DNA of 60,355 nt from Archaeoglobaceae archaeon (lineage in GTDB: Archaea; Halobacteriota; Archaeoglobi; Archaeoglobales; Archaeoglobaceae). The DNA lies in assembly GCA_025058735.1 (NCBI GenBank), contig JANXDX010000027.1, forward strand, positions 1 through 60,355. The letters run 5' to 3'. A program made the position numbers and the translations under genes. Each line of letters begins with the position of its first letter. Within the stretch, counting starts at the first letter, position 1. Shown here piece after piece: positions 1-37,976 of the stretch. Under the pieces are notes generated by a model that searched no databases, was not told the DNA's origin, and was given only the letters and a program-made list of their open reading frames with translations.

Positions 1-894
1 AACTAGCATCTTCGCAGCTTCGATCAAGGTAAACATGTCTGCAAGCTTGAAAGCTATTGCCTGATGCTCGATAAGAGATTTTCCAAAGGCTTTCCTTTGC
101 TTAGCATAATCCAAAGCTCTCTCATAAGCTCCAATTGCTATTCCTAAGTGTAGAGCAGCAATCTTTACTCTACTTTCATTGAAAAATTGCATCAACTGAT
201 AAAATCCTTTATTCAGTTCACCTATTAAATTTTCTTTTGGAACTCTAACGTTTTTCAACAAAACTTCGCAAGTATCGTGACAGTTCATTCCCATTTTTTC
301 TATCTTTTTTGCCTGATATCCTTCTCTTTTTGTCTCAACTAAAAAAGCACTTATCCCTCTATGCGGTGGATCAACTTCAGAAGTCTTTGCAAGAACTACT
401 ATCCAATCTGCAACACTTCCATTTGTTATAAAAGTTTTTGTACCATTTATTACCCAGTGATCTTTTTCCAAAGACGCTCTACATCTCATAGCAGTTACAT
501 CTGTTCCACAGTCCGGCTCTGTTATTGCTATTCCAGATGGAGCTATACCTTTAACAACTACTGGGATGTAATTTTCTTTTTGTTCCTCACTTCCAAAACG
601 CATGAGCATGGGTATTCCGAGAACTGCTAGATCTATGCAGGAACCTATACTACTGTCAGCTCTGCAGAACTCTATACTGATCAAAGCTTCAGCTAGAGAA
701 TCCATCCCTGCTCCTCCATATTCTTCTGGAACACTAGCTCCAATGAAACCTAATTTAGCAGCTTTTCTAAATATATCCCACGGATACTCTTTTTTCTCAT
801 CGTACTCTTTTCCGTATGGCATTATTTCCTTTTCTGCAAATTCTCTAACAGCACTTTGAATCATCTTGTGTTCTTCATCAAGCTCAAAATTCAT
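1..894 (-). CDS. acyl-CoA dehydrogenase, partial (3' end outside the window)
   Basis: This FAD enzyme would oxidise an acyl-CoA to the 2-enoyl-CoA and pass electrons to an electron-transfer flavoprotein. The frame stays open for 298 codons to the window edge. It reads as the family from its first residues (MNFELDEEHKMIQ) through the substrate/FAD region (ITEPDCGTD, then WVINGTKTFITNG). The C-terminal part that normally carries the catalytic glutamate lies beyond the window. The ATG at 892-894 overlaps the DUF35 stop codon by 4 bp, so this is the last visible gene of the methylmalonyl-CoA operon. Its acyl chain preference cannot be read from the sequence. Confidence 0.93.
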   Translation of the reverse strand, partial: MNFELDEEHKMIQSAVREFAEKEIMPYGKEYDEKKEYPWDIFRKAAKLGFIGASVPEEYGGAGMDSLAEALISIEFCRADSSIGSCIDLAVLGIPMLMRFGSEEQKENYIPVVVKGIAPSGIAITEPDCGTDVTAMRCRASLEKDHWVINGTKTFITNGSVADWIVVLAKTSEVDPPHRGISAFLVETKREGYQAKKIEKMGMNCHDTCEVLLKNVRVPKENLIGELNKGFYQLMQFFNESRVKIAALHLGIAIGAYERALDYAKQRKAFGKSLIEHQAIAFKLADMFTLIEAAKMLV

Positions 895-1304
895 ACAGGT
901 CTCTCCAATTTAAACATTGGAACTACTCTTTTTTCCTTATCAGGATAGAAAGGCTCGTTTGGAAACTCTTTACCGTACACTCTAACTTCCATGTCTATCA
1001 AATGTTGTCCAAGCTTTTCAGCTTTTTCTGGATCTATCTCAAGTCTTCCCATTATGCAAGGTCCCTCCTCAAGTTCAACCATTGCTACAACGTAGGGAAC
1101 TTCTTTCTCATATCCAGCTGGGGCAACGTAGGTAGTTGTAAAACTCAAAATTCTTCCCTTTCCACTCAATTCAACTTTTACTAAATTTCTGCTACCACAG
1201 TTGTTACATGTAGCTTTTGGAGGGCATGTGTAACTTCCACAATCGTTACACTTCAAACCGATCAACTTTCCTTCAAGTAAAGCATTGAAAAAGTCTTTAA
1301 ACAT
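891..1304 (-). CDS. DUF35 OB-fold / zinc-ribbon acyl-CoA-binding protein
   Basis: A 137-residue protein with an N-terminal rubredoxin-like zinc ribbon (CNDCGSYTCPPKATCNNCGS, about residues 19-38) followed by an OB fold. Proteins of this family in archaea form complexes with thiolases and HMG-CoA synthase and channel acyl-CoA intermediates. The gene follows the thiolase gene directly: the ATG at 1304 is preceded by a GAGGTGA Shine-Dalgarno that contains the thiolase stop codon. This fits translational coupling and a thiolase-DUF35 complex. It has no catalytic motif of its own. Confidence 0.9.
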   Translation of the reverse strand: MFKDFFNALLEGKLIGLKCNDCGSYTCPPKATCNNCGSRNLVKVELSGKGRILSFTTTYVAPAGYEKEVPYVVAMVELEEGPCIMGRLEIDPEKAEKLGQHLIDMEVRVYGKEFPNEPFYPDKEKRVVPMFKLERPV

Positions 1305-1308
1305 TTTA

Positions 1309-2496
1309 TCACCTCTTGTGTATACTTAATATTATGTTAACCAACGTTGTAAAATCTCCTCCAAGTGTATCTGTCATAGCTGTTTCGACATTTTTCAGCT
1401 GATTGCAGTCAGCCTTTCCTCTAAGTTGCTTGACAACTGTATATACTTGAGAAACTCCAGTAGCTCCAACTGGATGACCTTTTCCTATGAGTCCACCGTC
1501 TGGATTTACCGGAAGTTCACCATCTAGAGAAGTGGCTCCATCGAGAGTAGCTTTCCAAGCTTCTCCATATTCAAAAAATCCCATAGCTTCCAGAGCAATT
1601 ATTTCAGCTATTGTAAAGCAGTCGTGCAGTTCAACAAAATCAACATCTTTAGGTGTAAGCTTAGCCTCTTTAAAAGCCATCTCTGCAGATCTCTTCCTTG
1701 ACAAGGCTTTTACCATTTCTTTTCCTTGTCTAAAAAGTGAACCTGCAGAAGCTTGTCCAGTTCCTAGGACATAGATAGGATCATCTATTACTTTCTCAGC
1801 TAAATCTGCAGAAGCAACTATCGCAGCAGCTCCACCATCTGTCATTGGACAGCAGTCGAGTAGAGTAATTGGTGAGCATATCATTCTAGAGTTCAAAACG
1901 TCTTCAACTTTTAAATTACCGTATTTTCCATAAAACTGTCCTTTTGGATTTGCGGCTCCATTTTTGTGATTTTTAATTGAAACGTAAGCCATAGCCTCTT
2001 TTAGCTTTTCCAGTGGAACCTCGTAAACTTTTGAATAAAGACGAGCTGCCAATGCAAAAACTCCTGGAAAAGTCAGGCCGGCGGTAATTTCATAAACTCC
2101 ATCTACTGCAGTAGCTAAAGCTCTAGTCCCTATCGCAGTTCCAGCGCTTAAAAGTCTTTCACTTCCACCTACAGCTACGCAATCGTAATGACCAGCAGCT
2201 ACAGCTTTAACAGCTTCTCTAAAAGCTACGCTGGATGACGCACAAGCTCCTTCAAATCTTATCGCCGGAATACCTTTCAATCCAACTTCGTCTGCCATGA
2301 AACCTGCAAGGTTTGCGGAGCCATCTGTCATCTCTCCAACGAAGTTTCCATAGTATATAGCTTCTATATCTTTCAATTCTATGTTTGAACTCTCAAATGC
2401 TTCAAAAAAAGCCTCTGCAAACAAATCTACTAGAGATCTGTTTGGATGTTTTCCAAACTTACTCATTCCTACTCCCAGAACTGCTACCTTTCTCAT
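1309..2496 (-). CDS. thiolase-family acyltransferase (archaeal / SCP-x type)
   Basis: Predicted to make or cleave a 3-ketoacyl-CoA such as acetoacetyl-CoA or a C5 homologue. The nucleophilic cysteine is in the GACASSS motif and the catalytic histidine in GKGHPVGATG. As in other archaeal and SCP-x-like thiolases, the second cysteine of bacterial thiolases is absent from the C-terminal GG motif (TLGGDFTT). The start is placed at ATG 2496 because a strong GGAGGTG at 2501-2507 precedes it; a longer reading to 2526 would run into the adenosyltransferase gene. DUF35 and acyl-CoA dehydrogenase genes follow in the same operon. Confidence 0.9.
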   Translation of the reverse strand: MRKVAVLGVGMSKFGKHPNRSLVDLFAEAFFEAFESSNIELKDIEAIYYGNFVGEMTDGSANLAGFMADEVGLKGIPAIRFEGACASSSVAFREAVKAVAAGHYDCVAVGGSERLLSAGTAIGTRALATAVDGVYEITAGLTFPGVFALAARLYSKVYEVPLEKLKEAMAYVSIKNHKNGAANPKGQFYGKYGNLKVEDVLNSRMICSPITLLDCCPMTDGGAAAIVASADLAEKVIDDPIYVLGTGQASAGSLFRQGKEMVKALSRKRSAEMAFKEAKLTPKDVDFVELHDCFTIAEIIALEAMGFFEYGEAWKATLDGATSLDGELPVNPDGGLIGKGHPVGATGVSQVYTVVKQLRGKADCNQLKNVETAMTDTLGGDFTTLVNIILSIHKR

Positions 2497-2497
2497 A

Positions 2498-2974
2498 CTA
2501 CACCTCCTCAAACTCCTCTCCTTCAAACAAAATAAGCAGGTAAAGTAGATAACCTAACTTGTTCAACCAGTCGACCAAATTTTTGTTTACGAAACCTTCA
2601 AAGTGAGCATCAACTACAACTCTCTCAGCTCTCCTAACTATCGTTCTTGCAACACTCAAAAAAGCTGTAACATCATCTTTTTCCAGTATCAAAAATTTTT
2701 TTGGAATTTCGACAGACTTTTCAAGCTTTGAAATTTGCTCATCTAGAAATTTCAAATTCTCATCGTCAAATCCATCATACCCAGCGACGTGTGCACAGGC
2801 TTTCGAAAAAGACTTTTGAACGATTCTTAAAATCTCTTTTGTCTCATTTTTTTTTGAGAAAACTCTAGCTAAACCTATGAATGCGTTTGCCTCATCTAGA
2901 GTTCCTAAGGCGTGAGCAACTTTACTACTTTTAGCAACTTTTTTACTGGTCCAAGTAAAAGAGCTATCTTTCAT
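2498..2974 (-). CDS. ATP:cob(I)alamin adenosyltransferase, PduO type
   Basis: Makes adenosylcobalamin, the cofactor of the adjacent methylmalonyl-CoA mutase. The 158-residue protein shows the PduO-type pattern: an N-terminal basic/Ser segment, [16 protein letters not shown] near residue 23, and the ATP/corrin-binding helix [13 protein letters not shown] near residue 108. The C-terminal [12 protein letters not shown] matches the usual N-x-LSDxLF segment only loosely. It is somewhat short for the family, so PduO membership rests on these motifs plus operon context. The ATG at 2974 overlaps the end of meaB by 11 bp. Confidence 0.8.
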
Positions 2975-3995
2975 AGCAGAGCTTGGAAATAATTTCTTCT
3001 GCTACAGTGTAAGGATCTTTTTTGTTTTCAACTATCTCTTTCAAAATTTCCGTGTAGTTGAACTTCTTCTTTATCAAGTTTTTGATCTCTCCGAGTATAA
3101 TTTCTTCAAGTTCAATTTTTGCTCTGCTACTTCTTCTCTTTAAAAGTCCACCGCTCTTTCTCTGATACTCGTAATGCTTTTCTATTGAATCTGCAAGTTC
3201 GGAAATTCCAACTCCTCTGTCAGCTATTGTTGTATGTATCGGTGGAACCCAGTGGTTTGAAACTTTAAATATCTCACCGCTTAAAACTCTAGCTTCATCT
3301 GCGTGTGTCAAAGTGCTCAAAGTCTGTACAACTTCTTCGCTCATCATAACCATCGATCTCAACCAGCGTACGGTCTTCTCAACACCTTCAAGGTCGGCTT
3401 TGTTCACAACGAATATATCTGCTATCTCTAGAATTCCAGCTTTGCTAAGCTGTATATCGTCTCCAACTTCTGGCATCAGAATAACAACCACTGTGTCTGC
3501 CACTTTTACTATATCAACTTCTCCCTGCCCAGCTCCAACTGTTTCAACAAAAATTATGTCGAATCCATAAGCATCTAAAATTTTTACAACATCTCCAGTT
3601 TTAGCTGCTAACCCTCCAGCTCTTCCCCTTGAACTCATGCTTCTAAAGAATACCCCAGGATCTACCCAGAGTTGTTTGTTTGCATCAAATCCTTCCATCC
3701 TTAGCCTATCTCCAAGTAAAGCTCCTCCCGTAAAAGGAGATCCAGGATCAACTGCTACTATTCCAACCATCTTTCCTCTTTTTCTAAACTCCTCGGTAAG
3801 TTTACTCATTATTGTACTTTTTCCAACCCCTGGAAATCCAGTTAAACCTATCACATGTGCTCTTCCAGTTCTGCTGTGTATAGCTTTCAGTATCTCTTTA
3901 CTTCCAGGAAGCTCGTTTTCAACGTAAGTTATAGCTCTAGCTAGAGCTCTTCTATTTTTAGAAAAAATTCCATTGACAATTTCGTCAACGTTCAT
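2964..3995 (-). CDS. meaB: MeaB/ArgK-type G3E GTPase, chaperone of methylmalonyl-CoA mutase
   Basis: A P-loop GTPase that gates adenosylcobalamin loading and protects methylmalonyl-CoA mutase from inactivation. Its 343 residues include Walker [10 protein letters not shown] at about residues 53-61, the [13 protein letters not shown] segment typical of the family, the [13 protein letters not shown] switch and the NKADL guanine-recognition motif. The ATG at 3995 overlaps the end of the B12-binding subunit gene by 11 bp. Order and function agree: mutase subunits, chaperone, then cofactor-making adenosyltransferase. Confidence 0.94.
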
Positions 3996-4413
3996 TTATA
4001 CTACCTTTTTTCTTTTTTAAATTTTCCCTTATATATTCGATTATTGTACTTATCGGTGTTCCAGGAATAAATATCTCATCAACTCCAAGCTCTTTCAGCT
4101 TAGGTATGTCATCGTTTGGAATTATCCCTCCAACCAATATCAACATCTCTTCAGGTTTTCCACCGTACTCTTTTATGTACTGTATTGTTTTAGGTACCAA
4201 GGTCATGTGCGCACCGCTGTGCAAACTTATCCCTACGACGTCGGCATCTTCATCAACTGCAGCTCTTGCAACTTCTTGAGGAGTCCTGTGAAGACCTGTA
4301 TATATTACTTCAAAACCTGCATCTCTTAGAAACCTTGCAAGAACTTTTACACCTCTGTCATGACCATCCAAGCCTACCTTAGCTAAAACAACTCTTATTT
4401 TCTTCTCTTCCAT
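3985..4413 (-). CDS. methylmalonyl-CoA mutase, B12-binding (C-terminal) subunit
   Basis: A stand-alone cobalamin-binding domain of 142 residues. It carries the lower-ligand motif D-x-H-x-x-G as DGHDRG (D16, H18, G21), followed by the expected SLHSG loop and a GG(I)IP loop. In archaea the mutase is commonly split into this subunit and a separate TIM-barrel subunit, as here. The gene begins 10 bp after the large-subunit stop codon and overlaps meaB. Confidence 0.95.
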
Positions 4414-4423
4414 ACTTTACACC

Positions 4424-6121
4424 TTAAACTATTATCGGTTTTCTGTAAGTTCCATGAACTTTCTTTAAAGTACCTATTATCTCTCCAACTGTAGCGTAAT
4501 TTTTAACTGCTTCAAACACTGCAGGCATGATGTTTTCGTTGTTTTCTGCAGCGCTTTTTATCCAATCTAGAGCTTCTTTTACAGAGGAGTTATCTCTTTC
4601 AGCTTTTATCTTTCTCAATCTCTCAATTTGTCTTCTTTGAACTTCTGGATCAACTTTTAGAATCGGTATCTTCAACTCTTCCTCTATTGTAAACTTGTTG
4701 ACTCCAACTATAAACCTCTTCCCCTCCTCAACTTCTCTCTGATACTTTGCAGCTGCATTTGAAATCTCTTTTACAAAGAAGCCGTTTTCAATTCCCTTAA
4801 GAACACCTCTTAGCATGCTTCCTCCACCCATCTTCTTGATTTGTTCGATGTACTTCCATGCAAGTTCTTCCATCTTGTTTGTCAACCATTCTACGTACCA
4901 GCTTCCGCCTAGAGGATCTACAACACTTGTAACTCCACTTTCATATGCTATTATCTGCTGAGTCCTCAAAGCTACTCTAACAGCCTCCTCACTTGGTAAA
5001 GCCCAAGCTTCATCGAAGCTGTTTGTATGCAAGCTCTGACAACCTCCAAGAACTGCTGCTAGAGCTTGAATAGTAGTCCTTATTATGTTGTTCAAAGGTT
5101 GCTGGGCAGTTAAAGAACAACCTGCAGTTTGAACGTGGAACTTCATCCACCAAGATCTTGGATTCTTAGCTCCATATATGTCACGCATAATCTTTGCCCA
5201 CATTCTTCTTGCTGCTCTGAACTTTGCAACTTCTTCGAAGAAATCGTTGTGAGAGTTGAAGAAGAAACTGAGTTGTGGAGCAAGTTTATCTATATCTATC
5301 CCCCTCTCAATAGCAGCTTCAACGTAAGCCATCCCGTCTGCGATCGTAAAAGCTAACTCTTGAACTGCTGTAGAGCCAGCTTCTCTTATATGGTAACCTG
5401 AAATGCTTATCAGGTTGAACTTTGGAACATTCTCAACTCCCCATTCAAATATATCGACTATAATTTTAACTGAAGGTTCTGGGGGTAGAACTAAAGTGTT
5501 TTGAGCGTGAAATTCTTTAAGCATATCGTTCTGAATTGTACCTCTTATCTCTTCTCTAGGAACTCCTTGCATATCTGCTATAGCTGTGTACATGGCAAGT
5601 ATTATTCCAGCTGGTGGATTTATCGTGAAAGAAGTTGAGATCTTATCTAGAGGAATGCCGTCAAACAGGATCTCAAAATCTTTTAAGGTATCAACTGCAA
5701 CTCCAACTTTTCCAACTTCTCCGTCTGCAAGTGGGTCGTCGCTGTCCAAACCCATCAAAGTTGGAAAGTCGAAAGCTGTACTCAATCCAGTCTCTCCTTC
5801 CCTTAAAAGCATCTTCCATCTTTTATTTGTATCTTCTGCAGTTCCAAATCCTGAGAACATCCTCATCGTCCAAAGTCTTCCTCTGTACATGTTTGGATAG
5901 ACTCCTCTAGTAAATGGAAACTCTCCTGGATATCCTATATCTCTTAGAAAATCTGTGTGAGCAACATCGCTTGGATCGTAGATAGCTTTCAATTCAATTC
6001 CGGACAGAGACTCAAACCCTTCATCTTTAGCCTTCGTCTTTTTGAGCCAATCTTTATAACATTTTTCTTCCCATTCTCTTCTTTTGGCTTCTATTTCTAA
6101 CATTTCATCTTTTTCCATCAT
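4424..6121 (-). CDS. methylmalonyl-CoA mutase, large TIM-barrel subunit
   Basis: Interconverts (R)-methylmalonyl-CoA and succinyl-CoA with adenosylcobalamin. The 565-residue chain contains family signatures: YPNMYRGRLWTMRMFSGFG, TAFDFPTLMG, the SISGYHIREAGS stretch near the active site, and HNDFFEEVAKFRAARRMWA. It ends before the B12 domain, which is encoded by the next gene. ATG codons at 6121 and 6118 and a TTG at 6124 are all possible starts. A TATA-like box at 6141-6150 would start transcription close to 6119-6121, so the mRNA is probably leaderless. No epimerase gene is visible in this operon. Confidence 0.95.
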   Translation of the reverse strand: MMEKDEMLEIEAKRREWEEKCYKDWLKKTKAKDEGFESLSGIELKAIYDPSDVAHTDFLRDIGYPGEFPFTRGVYPNMYRGRLWTMRMFSGFGTAEDTNKRWKMLLREGETGLSTAFDFPTLMGLDSDDPLADGEVGKVGVAVDTLKDFEILFDGIPLDKISTSFTINPPAGIILAMYTAIADMQGVPREEIRGTIQNDMLKEFHAQNTLVLPPEPSVKIIVDIFEWGVENVPKFNLISISGYHIREAGSTAVQELAFTIADGMAYVEAAIERGIDIDKLAPQLSFFFNSHNDFFEEVAKFRAARRMWAKIMRDIYGAKNPRSWWMKFHVQTAGCSLTAQQPLNNIIRTTIQALAAVLGGCQSLHTNSFDEAWALPSEEAVRVALRTQQIIAYESGVTSVVDPLGGSWYVEWLTNKMEELAWKYIEQIKKMGGGSMLRGVLKGIENGFFVKEISNAAAKYQREVEEGKRFIVGVNKFTIEEELKIPILKVDPEVQRRQIERLRKIKAERDNSSVKEALDWIKSAAENNENIMPAVFEAVKNYATVGEIIGTLKKVHGTYRKPIIV

Positions 6122-6140
6122 CAAGAAATTCGATCTTAAG

Positions 6141-18386: not shown

Positions 18387-19319
18387 ATGGTAACAACCGA
18401 CGTATCTTTACCTGAGAGGGAATTACTTGAACTCTTTAAAGAGGCTCCGAAAGAGTCCTTTGAACTACTGTTGAGAAATCTGAGGATTAGGGATTATCTT
18501 CAAAACCTTTACTACAAACATTCCTTAGGATTAAAGCTATTCTACGATGAGAACTTTGACAGAATATTCGATGAATTCTTCAAATTCTTCTTTAGACCGC
18601 TGGAGTTGGCTGTTTATGGTATTAGAAGTCTTCGATTTCTCTTCTACTCATTCGACGTTGAATTTTTAGAAACTCAGAACGAAGTATCCAGAGCTCTAAA
18701 CGACTTCATAATTTCCTGGTTTGAACATTTGAAGTTGACTTCAGAGATCTTTCTAGGTAGAACTGTTACAGGTCCATCAGATTTATTGAGATATTTTATT
18801 AAAATGTATAAAGAAAGATTTGAAAGGATTCCCAGAGTAGATCTATCACCGGACTATCCTTTTATATTTCCAAAGTCAGTTTTTGAAAAAATTGAAAAAA
18901 GTACTGAGCACTGGCAAAAGTTTTCAGATGATTTTTTGAAGTACAAAGGAACAATAAAAGAAACTTATGTAAAAGCTGCTGAAAAGTTTATAGAAGTTGC
19001 AAACAGCAAAACTTTTGGAAGCTATCAGGAATTTTCGAACACATTCTCTGAAATAGAAGCTAAAGCTTTTGATGAACTGCTGAAATCTAAGGAGTACTTA
19101 GATCTGCAAAAAAATATGCTAGAAAATTTAATGGATTATATATATTATTATAGAAGCTTTCTGGAGGAGTTGCTGATCTCTAACCCTGTGAACCCATTTG
19201 CAACAATTTCGATGATCGATGAAGCTTTCAAAAGAATAACAGATTTGAAGAGAAGAGTTTCTGAACTTGAAAAAAAAGTTTTAGAGTTGGAGGGAAAGTA
19301 TGCTGGTAGAAAAGATTAA
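18387..19319 (+). CDS. phaE: PhaE-like subunit of class III PHA synthase
   Basis: A 310-residue, mostly helical protein without catalytic motifs. It ends in a heptad-rich coiled coil (about residues 275-305: ITDLKRRVSELEKKVLELE), the usual C-terminal feature of PhaE. It directly precedes and overlaps by 20 bp the catalytic subunit gene, the standard class III order. The start may be ATG 18387 or a GTG at 18378; the TATA box at 18347-18355 would put the transcript start at about 18377, so both are possible. PhaE stabilises and activates PhaC on the granule. Confidence 0.85.
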   Translation: MVTTDVSLPERELLELFKEAPKESFELLLRNLRIRDYLQNLYYKHSLGLKLFYDENFDRIFDEFFKFFFRPLELAVYGIRSLRFLFYSFDVEFLETQNEVSRALNDFIISWFEHLKLTSEIFLGRTVTGPSDLLRYFIKMYKERFERIPRVDLSPDYPFIFPKSVFEKIEKSTEHWQKFSDDFLKYKGTIKETYVKAAEKFIEVANSKTFGSYQEFSNTFSEIEAKAFDELLKSKEYLDLQKNMLENLMDYIYYYRSFLEELLISNPVNPFATISMIDEAFKRITDLKRRVSELEKKVLELEGKYAGRKD

Positions 19320-20274
19320 AGATCTAAAACCAGGATTTTGTGAAAAGGAAGTTGTGCTAGAAGACTGGCTTTTCAAACTTCACAGATTTAAAGCTGAAGT
19401 TAAACAAAAAACACCTATTTTGATCTCTTATGCTTTCATAAATCGTCCCTACATTTTAGATCTGCACAGAGAAGTCAGTGCTATCAAGTATTTAGTTGAG
19501 GCTGGATTTGATGTTTGGCTGATCGATTGGGGATATCCGAAGATAGCTGATAGACATCTGAGCATAGAAGATTACGTAGATTTCATAGATAGATGCGTCG
19601 AGGTTGTAAGGAGATCACCGAACGAAAAGATTACACTTTGGGGATACTGCTTGGGAACAACTTTAGCAGTCATTTATGCATCTCTTTACCCAGAAAAGAT
19701 AAGGAACCTTATAATACAAACACCTCCTGTGAATTTTGACACAGATAACACTTTAGCTCTTTGGGCAAAAAACATAGATCCTTTGAAAGTTTCTAGAGCT
19801 TTACTAAACGCAACTGGAGATTTTTTGAACATAGCTTTTCTTTTGATCGATCCAGTTAGACTAGTCATAGGGAAGTACCAGTCTTTGATAGATAACTTGA
19901 ACGATGAAAAGAGTGTTAAAGACTTCTTTTACATGGATCACTGGATCTTCGATTCTCCGTCGGTTCCTGGAAAAGTTTTTGAGGAATATATAATTCGATG
20001 GTACCATAGGAACGAAATTATGAAGGGAGAATTTACAGTTAAAGGAAAAAAAGTTGATATAAAAAACATAACAATGCCCCTTCTAGTTTTAGTTGCAAGC
20101 AAAGATCACATAACTCCTCCAGAAAGCGCAATACCTTTCTTTGAAGCAGTCCCGTCGAAAGACAAGAAAATTTTGATGTCAGAGAAAGGGCACATAGGGT
20201 TGACTGTCAGCAGATCTTCCCACACAAAGATATGGCCGGAGGTGGTTAAGTGGTTGATAGAGAGGTCGAACTGA
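19300..20274 (+). CDS. phaC: class III-like poly(3-hydroxyalkanoate) synthase, catalytic subunit 1
   Basis: Polymerises (R)-3-hydroxyacyl-CoA into PHA at the granule surface. The 324-residue alpha/beta hydrolase carries the lipase-like box G-Y-C-L-G with nucleophile Cys117, general-base partner Asp269 (ASKDHITPP) and His298 (EKGHIG). The Cys in place of Ser is specific to PHA synthases, and the length fits class III PhaC. The gene overlaps phaE by 20 bp and phaJ by 25 bp. A second synthase is encoded on the opposite strand. Confidence 0.95.
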   Translation: MLVEKIKDLKPGFCEKEVVLEDWLFKLHRFKAEVKQKTPILISYAFINRPYILDLHREVSAIKYLVEAGFDVWLIDWGYPKIADRHLSIEDYVDFIDRCVEVVRRSPNEKITLWGYCLGTTLAVIYASLYPEKIRNLIIQTPPVNFDTDNTLALWAKNIDPLKVSRALLNATGDFLNIAFLLIDPVRLVIGKYQSLIDNLNDEKSVKDFFYMDHWIFDSPSVPGKVFEEYIIRWYHRNEIMKGEFTVKGKKVDIKNITMPLLVLVASKDHITPPESAIPFFEAVPSKDKKILMSEKGHIGLTVSRSSHTKIWPEVVKWLIERSN

Positions 20275-20702
20275 TCTATTCAAAGCTCGGAGGAGAATTG
20301 AAAGATTTCAAGAAGTTTGAAGGAGAAGTTGACGTAGGTTACAGGATAGTTTACGAGAAAAAAATAGAAGATGTAGATGTAAAATTTTTTGGACTAGTTT
20401 CAGGTGATCTGAATCCAGTACACTTTGATGATAGTTTTGCCTCAAAAACAAGGTTTGGAGGTAGAGTTGTTCATGGAATGCTAACTACTAGCTTAGTTTC
20501 TGCTGCAGTAGCTAGAATACCTGGAACAATAGTCTTATTGGAGAACTTTTTCAAATACACTTCTCCAGTTAGGCCAGGAGATCTAGTTAAAGTGGAAGGG
20601 GTTGTCGTTGAAAAAGATAGAAACAGGTTCAAAATCGACGTTAAATGTCTTGTAAAAGATAAAGTAGTTGCAGAAGGCTACGTGAAAATATTGATATGGT
20701 AG
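20250..20702 (+). CDS. phaJ: MaoC-type (R)-specific enoyl-CoA hydratase
   Basis: Hydrates trans-2-enoyl-CoA to (R)-3-hydroxyacyl-CoA, the substrate of PhaC, so it can drain beta-oxidation intermediates into PHA. The 150-residue hot-dog protein shows the hydratase 2 motif SGDLNPVHFDDSFA with catalytic Asp53 and His58, then the conserved GGRVVHGML. The start is a GTG at 20250 inside the phaC 3' end. Placement behind phaEC strongly supports a PhaJ role. Confidence 0.9.
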   Translation: MVDREVELIYSKLGGELKDFKKFEGEVDVGYRIVYEKKIEDVDVKFFGLVSGDLNPVHFDDSFASKTRFGGRVVHGMLTTSLVSAAVARIPGTIVLLENFFKYTSPVRPGDLVKVEGVVVEKDRNRFKIDVKCLVKDKVVAEGYVKILIW

Positions 20703-20734
20703 AAAAATAAAAAATAAATTTTTTATTATTTTAT
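20703..20734. terminator. A/T tract between convergent PHA operons
   Basis: The gap between the two convergent PHA operons consists almost only of A and T, with T-runs on both strands (for example ATTTTTTATTATTTTATTT near 20716-20734). Oligo-T tracts terminate archaeal transcription, so this short segment may serve both operons. Confidence 0.4.
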
Positions 20735-21835
20735 TTATATAGGTCTTTCAATTTTCTTTCCACTTCTCTCTGAAAGCCACTTTACTACTTCATCCCACAT
20801 CTTCACAGCTCTAGCTGAAACTACCAAGCCTACATGACCTACGTCTGCTTCAAAGATAGCTTTATCTTTGCTTGAAATACAGTTTAGGAATCCAAGGGTA
20901 TTCTTTGGTGGAGCTAAGTGATCTCTTTTACCAATTATAACTGCTGTTGGCAAATCTATCCTTTTAGGATCTACTCTTTTTCCATTTATGAAAAGTTTTC
21001 CTTCACATAAAGCGTTTTCCTGATAGAGTTTCTTTACGTAATCTATGTAAGCGTAAGGTGCAACGTTTACTCCGTCGTGGATCCAGCGCTCCATTCTAAA
21101 GAACAGATCTAGGAAACCTTCTTTATCAGCGTTTAGAAACATGCTTACGTACTTCGTTAGGTAGTTTTCTAGAGGTCTAAGAGTTTTGTATCTTTCAGCT
21201 AAAAACCAAGCAGGAACGTAGCCAAATGGAGCAACGAACTCCTCTGGATCGAAGAAACGTTTATCACTCAAATTTACAAGTCCTCCAACTTCTTTGTCGA
21301 AGTAGAGAGTTGCAGCTAGTAGAAGGAGATTTTTAACGTTTTGTAGGTAGAGTGAGGAGTAGATTGCGGCCAATCCACCTCCCATGCAGTAACCTAGGAT
21401 AGATACTTTACTGACTTTGGCATAACTTTTTATGTACTCGATGAACTCGTGCATAAAATCGTCTACGTAATCATCTAAGCTAAACTGATCAGCAACTGTA
21501 GCATCTCCCCATTTTATCAAATAAACATCAAAACCTGCTTGCAAGAATTTTCTAATAACACTTCTTTCTGGATAAAGATCTAAAATGTAAGGTTTATTTA
21601 TTAGAGCGTAGACTATTAAAAGAGGAGTTTCGTACTGCTTTTCAGTCATTGGAATGTAGCGGTAAAGTTTAACTCCATCATCGCTGTAAATTTCAATTCT
21701 TTGCGTTTGTCCAACCTTAACGTCTGGAATGAGGTAAGGTGTATCCTCATCCCATGGAAGAAACTCCCTCCCTAAAAACCATTCTGCAAGCTTTAAAGAT
21801 CTTCTAACGTTCCTTAAACCTTCCAAAAATATCAT
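20735..21835 (-). CDS. phaC: class III-like PHA synthase, catalytic subunit 2
   Basis: A second synthase of 366 residues, clearly diverged from the first. Box G-Y-C-M-G has nucleophile Cys150; Asp305 (GKRDHLAPP) and His334 (VGHVGL) complete the triad. About 40 extra N-terminal residues (to PDVKVGQTQ) distinguish it. Its ATG overlaps the stop of the PhaE-like gene (ATGA). It is convergent with the first cluster across a 32-bp A/T tract. Two synthases may differ in chain-length preference or expression timing. Confidence 0.94.
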   Translation of the reverse strand: MIFLEGLRNVRRSLKLAEWFLGREFLPWDEDTPYLIPDVKVGQTQRIEIYSDDGVKLYRYIPMTEKQYETPLLIVYALINKPYILDLYPERSVIRKFLQAGFDVYLIKWGDATVADQFSLDDYVDDFMHEFIEYIKSYAKVSKVSILGYCMGGGLAAIYSSLYLQNVKNLLLLAATLYFDKEVGGLVNLSDKRFFDPEEFVAPFGYVPAWFLAERYKTLRPLENYLTKYVSMFLNADKEGFLDLFFRMERWIHDGVNVAPYAYIDYVKKLYQENALCEGKLFINGKRVDPKRIDLPTAVIIGKRDHLAPPKNTLGFLNCISSKDKAIFEADVGHVGLVVSARAVKMWDEVVKWLSERSGKKIERPI

Positions 21836-22344
21836 TTACTACCACCACTTTTCAACTCCTCTTTAAGTTTAGCTATCTCTTGCAAAACTTTTCTACTTTC
21901 TCTCTTTATATCTCCCTTTAGATCTACGTAAGCTTCAGACAGAGCTACTACATCTTTTCTACTTACAAGTCCTAAACTGTGAAGAACTGCACTGTTCATA
22001 TTCTGGATGAGTGAGAGGTAGTTCATGTAAGCTCTATTTATGGCATTTACAGTTGCTGCATAAAGAGGTGTGTTCACCATTTCAGCAACTCTATCTTCCA
22101 AGTTTGACAAGTATTCTAAGTAAGTGTCAAGAAAACCGTCTAGGTCCGCGATCATGAGCTTTTGCCATATCTTTATAGAGTATTCGTAGTTCAAAGTTAG
22201 TATTTTGAAGTAACCATTCGTAATTTGTGCGATCGATTGCTTTATCTCATCATCTGTGATCTCTCCTAAATACGTCTTTGGATCCATAAATTTTCTTACG
22301 AAATCATTAAAAGCTTTGAACGTTTTTTCAAATTCTTCGAGCAT
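21832..22344 (-). CDS. short PhaE-like partner of PHA synthase 2
   Basis: A 170-residue helical protein with a C-terminal coiled coil (about residues 138-165). It has no enzymatic motif. Position immediately before and overlapping phaC2 by 4 bp matches the PhaE-PhaC arrangement. It is only about half the length of the PhaE at 18387 and keeps mainly the helical part, so similarity is of layout rather than clear sequence. A phasin-like function is the main alternative. Confidence 0.65.
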   Translation of the reverse strand: MLEEFEKTFKAFNDFVRKFMDPKTYLGEITDDEIKQSIAQITNGYFKILTLNYEYSIKIWQKLMIADLDGFLDTYLEYLSNLEDRVAEMVNTPLYAATVNAINRAYMNYLSLIQNMNSAVLHSLGLVSRKDVVALSEAYVDLKGDIKRESRKVLQEIAKLKEELKSGGSK

Positions 22345-22376
22345 AATGTTTTTCTTCTTTGTAGCTAATAAACTTT

Positions 22377-22937
22377 GTGGAATATGTAAGATGGGCGAAG
22401 ATGTTTCAACTTTGGTATAGAAATCTGGTTCAAAAAATCTCTTCCTTTGTTAAACCGAAAAAGATCGTTGACATAGGCTGCGGTCCAGGAATACTGATGG
22501 AGGAATTGATGAAATACTTTCCAGAAGCTTTAATAGTTGGAATAGATAGAGACGTTGAGATGTGCAAAATGTCCAAAGCTATACTTTGCGATGCAAGATC
22601 TCTTCCGTTCAGAGATGCTACGTTTGATCTAGCAATATTTTGCTATTCCTTACATGAAATCGGACTTTTAGCGCTTTACGAAGCTAGAAGAGTTCTTAAA
22701 GACGATGGAATTTTGGTTGTTAGAGATGTAAGATCTGAGATGACAAAAATTGCTAGAGACTTTCTTCTTTTCCAGCTTTCACTGAACGTTGGAGTAAATT
22801 ACGCGGAGAAAGTGAGAAGCTACTTAGAAGTTTTTCCAAATTCTACTTTCATTCGAAAATTTGTTGAAGAAAACTTTGAAGTTCTGCACTTCTCTTCAAC
22901 ACCCTTCGATTTCGATTTGATAGCGAGAAAGTTGTAA
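22377..22937 (+). CDS. class I SAM-dependent methyltransferase
   Basis: A 186-residue protein with the SAM-binding motif VDIGCGPGILMEEL, the acidic loop GIDRDVEM and the LCDARSLPF motif, followed by CYSLHEIG, typical of UbiE/small-molecule methyltransferases. The GTG start at 22377 is only 32 bp from the divergent PhaE-like gene, so promoters overlap. It lies inside the PHA locus, between synthase 2 and the phasin genes, but no PHA role is known for such enzymes. The substrate is unknown. Confidence 0.82.
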   Translation: MEYVRWAKMFQLWYRNLVQKISSFVKPKKIVDIGCGPGILMEELMKYFPEALIVGIDRDVEMCKMSKAILCDARSLPFRDATFDLAIFCYSLHEIGLLALYEARRVLKDDGILVVRDVRSEMTKIARDFLLFQLSLNVGVNYAEKVRSYLEVFPNSTFIRKFVEENFEVLHFSSTPFDFDLIARKL

Positions 22938-22966
22938 AATTTCAAAAAATAAAAAATATAGAAAAT

Positions 22967-23278
22967 TTACTTCTTCGGTGTTACAGTCTTTTCAGTCAAT
23001 TCGGTGAACCTTGAAATTATTTCATCTTGCTGTTTTTCAAAGCTTTCGAGCAACTTCTTGAAGTTCTCAAAAACCTTCGCTTGAGATTCCATGTAGATGC
23101 TTACAGTCTTCTTTACACTTTCGTAAGTTTCAGTCGGTACAAAGCTTTTGATGTAATACTCGTACAGAACTACGTAGCTGTCCATTGCAACTTTCATCAT
23201 GTCTAAACTCGTCTTTGCCACGGCAAAACCCATCTTGTAGAACCCCTTAAAAGCCTCTACAAAGTCCTTAAACTCCAT
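22967..23278 (-). CDS. phaP: phasin-like PHA granule protein
   Basis: A 103-residue, all-helical amphipathic protein with no catalytic motif, resembling archaeal PhaP in size and helix pattern. The start is fixed at ATG 23278 by a GGAGGTG site at 23285-23291; the GTG nine bases upstream lies within that site and cannot be used with it. It follows the PhaR-like gene with one base between stop and start, the phaR-phaP order known in haloarchaea. Phasins coat the granule and limit its size. Confidence 0.72.
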   Translation of the reverse strand: MEFKDFVEAFKGFYKMGFAVAKTSLDMMKVAMDSYVVLYEYYIKSFVPTETYESVKKTVSIYMESQAKVFENFKKLLESFEKQQDEIISRFTELTEKTVTPKK

Positions 23279-23279
23279 A

Positions 23280-23552
23280 CTATTCACCTCCCTCCTTTAT
23301 AACTATAACTTTAACTATATCTCCATCCTGCAAATTTAAAACAACTCTATCTGTTTCTGGAATTGAAATCCTTCCACCACTCTGTACTTTTGCTCTGAAC
23401 ACTGCGATGTTGTTGTTCATAATGTTGTATTTAACCAAATTCTTTAAAGTACTGTTCAAGGTTTCTATTAAGTTTGCCTGATATTTGAACAGGTTTTCCC
23501 AGAACCTCTGTACTTCTCTGAAGTATTCCTGCACGATGGTATTTAGTACCAT
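23280..23552 (-). CDS. phaR: PhaR-like regulator: granule-binding helix plus AbrB/SpoVT domain
   Basis: A protein of up to 90 residues. About 40 N-terminal residues form amphipathic helices resembling the phasin next door. The rest (AKVQSGGRISIP, then LQDGDIVKVIVI) is an AbrB/SpoVT swapped-hairpin DNA-binding domain. In haloarchaea PhaR is an AbrB-type protein that binds PHA granules and represses phaRP. ATG 23552 is possible, but TATATATA at 23557-23564 would start transcription near 23534, where an in-frame GTG stands. An inverted repeat covers this start region. The function is inferred from domain order and context. Confidence 0.75.
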   Translation of the reverse strand: MVLNTIVQEYFREVQRFWENLFKYQANLIETLNSTLKNLVKYNIMNNNIAVFRAKVQSGGRISIPETDRVVLNLQDGDIVKVIVIKEGGE

Positions 23553-37157: not shown

Positions 37158-37976
37158 TTATTTTAAGCCAAGCTCTTTCAAAACAGCCCTTCTCATAACT
37201 TCCACTGGAGCATCGACTTTTAACCATATTTCAAGAGCTTTTGCACCTTGGTAGATCAGCATCTCTACCCCGCTTACAACTTTGCAACCCCTCTCTTTTG
37301 CAAGTTTTATTAGAGGAGTCTCTGGTGGATTGTAGACTGTGTCGAAAACGATCAAATCTTTCTCAACTAGATCTCCTGGAATCGGTAACGAAGATTCGAA
37401 TCCGAGCATTCCTATTGGTGTTGCATTTATAATTATATCAACTCTACCTTTTACTTTGTTTATTTCATCGAACGGAATAAATATGCACTCACCAAAATTT
37501 CTCAGCATCTCCACAGTCTCTAAACCTCTTAAAACAGTTCTGTTCGTTACTACAACTTTTGCTCCCATCTTTAACATAGCTAGTGCAGAAGCTTTTCCAG
37601 CTCCTCCAGCACCAACAACTAGTGCTACTTTACCTTCAACATCTATGTTCTCTCTTCTAAAAGATTCCTCAACTCCAAAAACATCTGTGTTGTATCCGAT
37701 GGAATTTTTTAAATCTAAAACATTGACAGTATTTATCTTAGCCGCATCTCCAACAGTTTTTACAAGTTTAGCAACTTCTTCTTTGTATGGAATTGTCACG
37801 TTGAGACCTAGAAAACCTAAAGCTTTTGCACCTTCAATAGCTTTTACTAAATCGTTAGGCTTTACTTCAAAGGCCATGTATATTCCTTCAATTCCCAAAA
37901 ACTTAAGAGCAGCGTTGTGCATACTTGGAGATACAGAATGTTTCACAGGATATCCTATCAGTCCTAAGTATATCAT
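37158..37976 (-). CDS. aroE: shikimate dehydrogenase
   Basis: Reduces 3-dehydroshikimate to shikimate with NADPH. The 272-residue enzyme shows GYPVKHSVSPSMHNAA, the catalytic lysine in VTIPYKEEV, NTDVFGVE, the NADP loop VVGAGGAGKAS and TNRT, and NATPIGM. It is a single-gene unit; the 92-bp gap after it holds the symporter promoter. Confidence 0.96.
   Translation of the reverse strand: MIYLGLIGYPVKHSVSPSMHNAALKFLGIEGIYMAFEVKPNDLVKAIEGAKALGFLGLNVTIPYKEEVAKLVKTVGDAAKINTVNVLDLKNSIGYNTDVFGVEESFRRENIDVEGKVALVVGAGGAGKASALAMLKMGAKVVVTNRTVLRGLETVEMLRNFGECIFIPFDEINKVKGRVDIIINATPIGMLGFESSLPIPGDLVEKDLIVFDTVYNPPETPLIKLAKERGCKVVSGVEMLIYQGAKALEIWLKVDAPVEVMRRAVLKELGLK

Follow-up and report, generated by a model that had tools for sequence, protein, structure and literature searches.

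Two old synthase pairs in a probable polyhydroxyalkanoate locus of haloarchaeal plan from a thermophilic Archaeoglobaceae archaeon

The contig JANXDX010000027.1 of the Archaeoglobaceae assembly GCA_025058735.1, analysed here over its 60,355 nucleotides and called the window below, carries between positions 18387 and 23552 what is very probably a locus for the synthesis of polyhydroxyalkanoates (PHA) and for the formation of their granules. It appears to be of the kind known from haloarchaea as phaJ-R-P-E-C, here in a thermophilic archaeon and enlarged by a second pair of E and C genes. The seven genes that a first-pass annotation had proposed from the letters of the window (two synthase subunits PhaC, two partner subunits PhaE, the hydratase PhaJ, the phasin-like PhaP and the regulator PhaR) are all present as open frames, many of them overlapping their neighbours. 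They form two facing arms: on the plus strand E1, C1 and J follow each other, each overlapping the next, while on the minus strand R overlaps P and E2 overlaps C2, and the gap that separates, tail to tail, the C1-J arm from C2 is of 32 bases. Chance cannot account for this cluster, since it is met again in other Archaeoglobaceae and the genus as a whole repeatedly shows both synthases.

The window is contig 22 of an archaeal genome of 1.22 Mb, with an estimated completeness of 99.84%. The Archaeoglobi-like character suspected at first sight is borne out, the nearest named relatives being Archaeoglobales and Archaeoglobaceae metagenome-assembled genomes (MAGs), including WYZ-LMO2, which belongs to the same genus. 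This MAG originated from the Obsidian Pool hot spring in Yellowstone (PMC7380581), and the habitat of such relatives suggests that the organism of the window also lives in a hot environment.

PhaC1 (19300-20274, plus strand, 324 aa) and PhaC2 (20735-21835, minus strand, 366 aa) both match TIGR01836 (PHA_synth_III_C) over nearly the full length of the model, with E 3e-97 (325.8 bits) and E 5e-90 (302.0 bits) respectively. In both, the cysteine of the lipase box and its Asp and His partners are intact (C117/D269/H298 in C1, C150/D305/H334 in C2); the Cys and the Asp are conserved in 51 of 51 aligned PhaC proteins and the His, kept in C1 and C2, is near-invariant. When the AlphaFold model of C2 (predicted local distance difference test score 89.6) is ranked by fold against the PDB, the 15 best matches are all PHA synthases (E <= 3e-18), lipases appearing from E 5e-14 onward. 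In a tree of the same size (51 PhaC proteins) both fall inside the archaeal PhaC enzymes, apart from those of class I. This tree has no outgroup of non-PHA hydrolases, so that it is the fold and profile rankings that set the two proteins apart from the latter; from tree position and the fold ranking of C2 we reject a placement among such hydrolases, an outcome that the first-pass annotation had named as fatal to its proposal.

The two synthases are only about 37% identical, and they have different neighbours in the tree. C1, found in 17 Archaeoglobaceae, joins the synthases of another archaeal family, f9, with support 100/99, while C2, found in 11 genomes, joins haloarchaeal PhaC with support 89/89, or 96/86 in a tree made without three bacterial sequences on long branches. 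The placement of C2, which sits on a long branch, is held loosely. A recent duplication of one synthase is rejected, as a tree forced to unite C1 and C2 in a single clade fails the approximately unbiased (AU) test (p = 0.00025). We can therefore understand C1 and C2 as an old pair, and the view that the locus has two diverged synthases stands. In family f9, of the same phylum, two PhaC-like genes also lie side by side (L044:2446-4425, L089, L090), the second strongly diverged; the arrangement resembles that of the window, but has a separate origin in the tree.

A helical PhaE-like gene had been proposed ahead of each synthase gene, and this holds for the first more firmly than for the second. 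PhaE1 (18387-19319, plus strand, 310 aa) is a long protein, all-helical in its structure model, which would be the partner subunit of C1. Its C-terminal half matches TIGR01834 (E 1e-4, under the cut-off), and its profile aligns in hhalign with haloarchaeal PhaE (89.7%, E 1.8e-6, against E 0.06 for the reversed control) and with PhaE of families f23 and f5 (95.7%, E 1e-8); searches of the PDB by sequence and by fold gave no match at E <= 0.001. These comparisons point to a remote but significant homologue of PhaE. The short PhaE2 (21832-22344, minus strand, 170 aa) is a tentative one, for which the profile comparison with haloarchaeal PhaE gives 76% (E 2e-5), against 29% (E 6e-4) for the reversed control. 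The best arguments in its favour are that it stands immediately upstream of C2 wherever this synthase occurs, and that its C-terminal part bears a conserved motif, centred on R-K-D-V-x-A-L-S-E-A-Y-V-D-L-K-G-D, which aligns with the PhaE motif.

The regulator is easier to recognize. PhaR (23280-23552, minus strand, 90 aa) has an amphipathic N-terminus followed by an AbrB domain, and both parts align with haloarchaeal PhaR (hhalign 99.7%, E 5e-26, 38% over 78 columns), of which it is, judging by this alignment, a clear homologue, as had been supposed; the match to TIGR01439 (E 1e-4) is under the cut-off. Its gene lies upstream of phaP, in agreement with a PhaR of the haloarchaeal type, and overlaps it. 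In Haloferax mediterranei, PhaR represses phaRP and is bifunctional, acting in PHA accumulation and in granule formation (PMC10948481); the protein of the window is presumed to be a granule-bound repressor likewise. The gene that stands directly after it, phaP (22967-23287, minus strand), encodes a small helical protein of 106 aa without any family match above cut-off in profile searches. Comparison with haloarchaeal PhaP detected no homology (hhalign probability 2%, E 0.02, near the reversed controls). Its description as phasin-like is backed by its place directly after R and by its distribution: among the 55 Archaeoglobaceae genomes surveyed it is found in 16 of the 19 that have PhaC genes and in none of the 36 that lack them (Fisher p 3e-11, uncorrected for shared ancestry), and the three exceptions are two incomplete genomes and one where PhaC lies at a contig edge. 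Position and co-occurrence thus make it a presumed phasin, a positional analogue of haloarchaeal PhaP.

Both synthases are found in 9 of these 19 genomes, and the synteny search in Archaeoglobi retrieved the locus in several of them (G009, G019 and G022, for example). Genome G019 (2,196,266 bp), which we take to be Ferroglobus placidus, has nearly the set of the window, in the order J-R-P-(methyltransferase)-E2-C2, facing C1-E1. Genome G022 (1,770,093 bp), presumably Geoglobus ahangari, has J-R-P-E1-C1, with C1 as its only synthase. These two loci differ from the window in having J ahead of R, and the second in having C1 only. Several further genomes of the genus carry their E1-C1, E2-C2 and R-P sets on separate contigs. 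The order of the genes had been considered different from that of haloarchaea. This does not hold: the minus strand of the window reads R-P-E2-C2, the haloarchaeal order, with a methyltransferase gene inserted in antisense, and J-R-P precedes E-C in two relatives.

The reference for this comparison is the cluster of H. mediterranei, phaJ1-phaR-phaP-phaE-phaC (PMC4823750; PMC10948481), together with a Haladaptatus locus that has R-P-E-C with J alongside. The gene set and the R-P-E-C order on one strand are common to both sides, and R, C and J of the window are sequence homologues of their haloarchaeal counterparts. The window differs by its second pair E1-C1, to which J is attached, by the antisense methyltransferase, by shorter PhaC proteins that lack the haloarchaeal C-terminal extension, by a phasin unrelated or unrecognizable in sequence, by the lack of an evident PhaB-type reductase and by its thermophilic lineage. 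With the bacterial class III system (for example phaEC of a Sinorhizobium plasmid) it shares two subunits, the Cys-Asp-His triad and the adjacency of the genes, but identity is about 33% and the bacterial locus examined has no AbrB-type PhaR.

The inserted gene (22377-22937, plus strand), which the first-pass annotation had omitted, encodes an S-adenosylmethionine-dependent methyltransferase (PF08241, E 1e-15). It is linked to PHA genes in five genomes: the window, G009 and G019 have it in antisense between P and E2, whereas its neighbour is E2 in L051 and C1 in G018. The flanks of the locus are unrelated to it, with AMMECR1 at the left and TYW2/Trm5 at the right.

The monomers of such a polymer would be of the (R) form, and PhaJ (20250-20702, plus strand) is the likely enzyme to provide them. 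The MaoC-type hydratase with D53 and H58 that had been announced is confirmed (PF01575, E 2e-26), with the MaoC fold and the D-x4-H dyad of (R)-specific enoyl-coenzyme A (CoA) hydratases. A close homologue of solved structure is AF1124 of Archaeoglobus fulgidus (PDB 2b3m, 3k67; E 2e-66); PhaJ is also near the solved (R)-hydratases 5cpg, with which it was aligned, and 1iq6, and is 38% identical to the J protein of Haladaptatus. AF1124 belongs to a genome (probably G127) without PhaC, so that this hydratase is not specific to PHA. A second MaoC-type hydratase is found in the genome (G000 contig 12, 77056-77412; L193:3961-4410), nearest to RipB/Ich and PaaZ models.

The rest of metabolism was read in this draft genome by family searches with curated models, on which the absences given here rest. 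Two acetyl-CoA C-acetyltransferases pass the cut-off; they are accompanied by four 3-hydroxyacyl-CoA dehydrogenases, of which two are fused to a crotonase domain, by one separate crotonase and by one acyl-CoA dehydrogenase. Searching for PhaB, a short-chain dehydrogenase/reductase (SDR), gave no match to PF13561 and none above cut-off to PF00106; the best weak SDR match falls in the shikimate dehydrogenase at 37158-37976, and another, at C4:28951, may fall within an NAD synthase gene or next to it. There is therefore no evident PhaB, the classical PhaA-PhaB-PhaC route to polyhydroxybutyrate is not supported, and PhaJ is the likely source of (R)-monomers. Two further observations touch on supply. 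A row of genes on the minus strand of the window (891-6124) encodes the large and small parts of methylmalonyl-CoA mutase, a MeaB-type GTPase, a PduO-type cobalamin adenosyltransferase and a thiolase-domain protein; this set would link propionyl-CoA to central metabolism, and a propionyl-CoA route is possible. At L188:10045-12682 (G000 contig 4), a protein of the HpaB family, which we take to be that of 4-hydroxybutyryl-CoA dehydratase, is encoded directly beside an acetyl-CoA C-acetyltransferase, and the two might provide a second source of crotonyl-CoA.

A plausible cycle can be sketched from these elements. Thiolase, (S)-3-hydroxyacyl-CoA dehydrogenase and crotonase would turn acetyl-CoA into enoyl-CoA, for which fatty acids would be the other source; PhaJ would hydrate it to (R)-3-hydroxyacyl-CoA, which PhaE1C1 and PhaE2C2 would polymerize from their active-site cysteine. 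The small PhaP would coat the granule, and PhaR would repress its own phaRP operon until titrated by the granule. Without PhaB, PhaJ may serve in both directions, supply and mobilization; in H. mediterranei, PhaJ1 acts mainly in mobilization (PMC4823750).

Several points weigh against reading the locus as one of PHA synthesis. C1 and C2 both score under the curated NCBIfam cut-off for TIGR01836, 365.3 bits, and for this the label class III-type is used here; as the cut-off is passed by the nearest relatives of each, in f9 for C1 and in haloarchaea for C2, we read these scores as divergence, not as exclusion. The kinship of PhaE2 to PhaE is weak, and the presumed phasin has no sequence kinship to known phasins. 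PhaJ is widespread in relatives without PhaC, and is hence shared with other metabolism. No depolymerase was identified in the patatin and Abhydrolase_1 families. Finally, none of the open-licence papers searched reports polymer, granules or enzyme activity for Archaeoglobales, Ferroglobus or Geoglobus. A large survey records class III PhaC in archaea of thermal springs and hydrothermal vents but does not name Archaeoglobi (PMC8312272), so that an earlier count may already have included these genes. The word complete, as first applied to the locus, needs qualification: the phasin is assigned by position and co-occurrence, PhaE2 is tentative, and neither PhaB nor a patatin-type depolymerase was found.

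Why two pairs should be kept may be answered in more than one way. They might, as the first-pass annotation had suggested, serve different monomer ranges, one short-chain and the other longer, branched or derived from aromatic compounds, a division that is compatible with PHA synthesis and that we regard as a real possibility, if short of an even chance. The distance between C1 and C2, which lie in different clades, and the unequal length of the E subunits (310 and 170 aa) would fit it, and the PhaC proteins of H. mediterranei yield differing 3-hydroxyvalerate fractions (PMC2939530). Substrate range is however unreadable from sequence with the present tools, and three of the four phaC genes of H. 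mediterranei are cryptic, so that extra copies need not mean division of labour. More speculative, and rather improbable, is a thermophilic cycle without PhaB or patatin-type PhaZ, where all monomer would enter and leave via beta-oxidation and PhaJ, the two non-sister pairs splitting building from mobilization or else forming one mixed complex. It is likewise improbable that one pair polymerizes and the other mainly degrades, by hydrolysis or CoA thiolysis, in place of the missing depolymerase. The genome has no patatin (PhaZh1-type) gene and only two other Abhydrolase_1 proteins, both unspecific, and each of the two old synthases has been conserved on its own; yet both keep the Cys nucleophile of synthases, where the solved PhaZ, whose S102A mutant is among the PDB matches of C2, has Ser. 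The depolymerase search covered the patatin and Abhydrolase_1 families, and the 249-aa hydrolase at C4:43030 might itself act as PhaZ. That C1 and C2, with their helical partners, would be alpha/beta hydrolases or acyltransferases that make no storage polymer is very improbable: sub-cut-off scores, the silence of the papers searched and the lack of the locus in most of the family would agree with it, but not the position inside the PhaC tree, the Cys triad, the PhaR homologue, the PhaE profile match and a P gene restricted to genomes with PhaC.

The locus, then, represents in a thermophilic lineage a variant of the known haloarchaeal plan, one that has two synthase pairs of old divergence and apparently supplies its monomers without PhaB. 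The apparent absence of PhaB leads to the prediction that monomer supply depends on PhaJ. As the lineage includes cultured hyperthermophiles, the claim is testable at once. Should polymer indeed be made, the range of PHA storage would extend from haloarchaea, ammonia oxidizers and Methanoperedens to a lineage of hot springs and vents, which would become a source of heat-stable synthases and of a phasin unlike the known ones. The J-R-P-E-C plan would then be common to Halobacteria and Archaeoglobi, and this would bear on the age of polyester storage in archaea.

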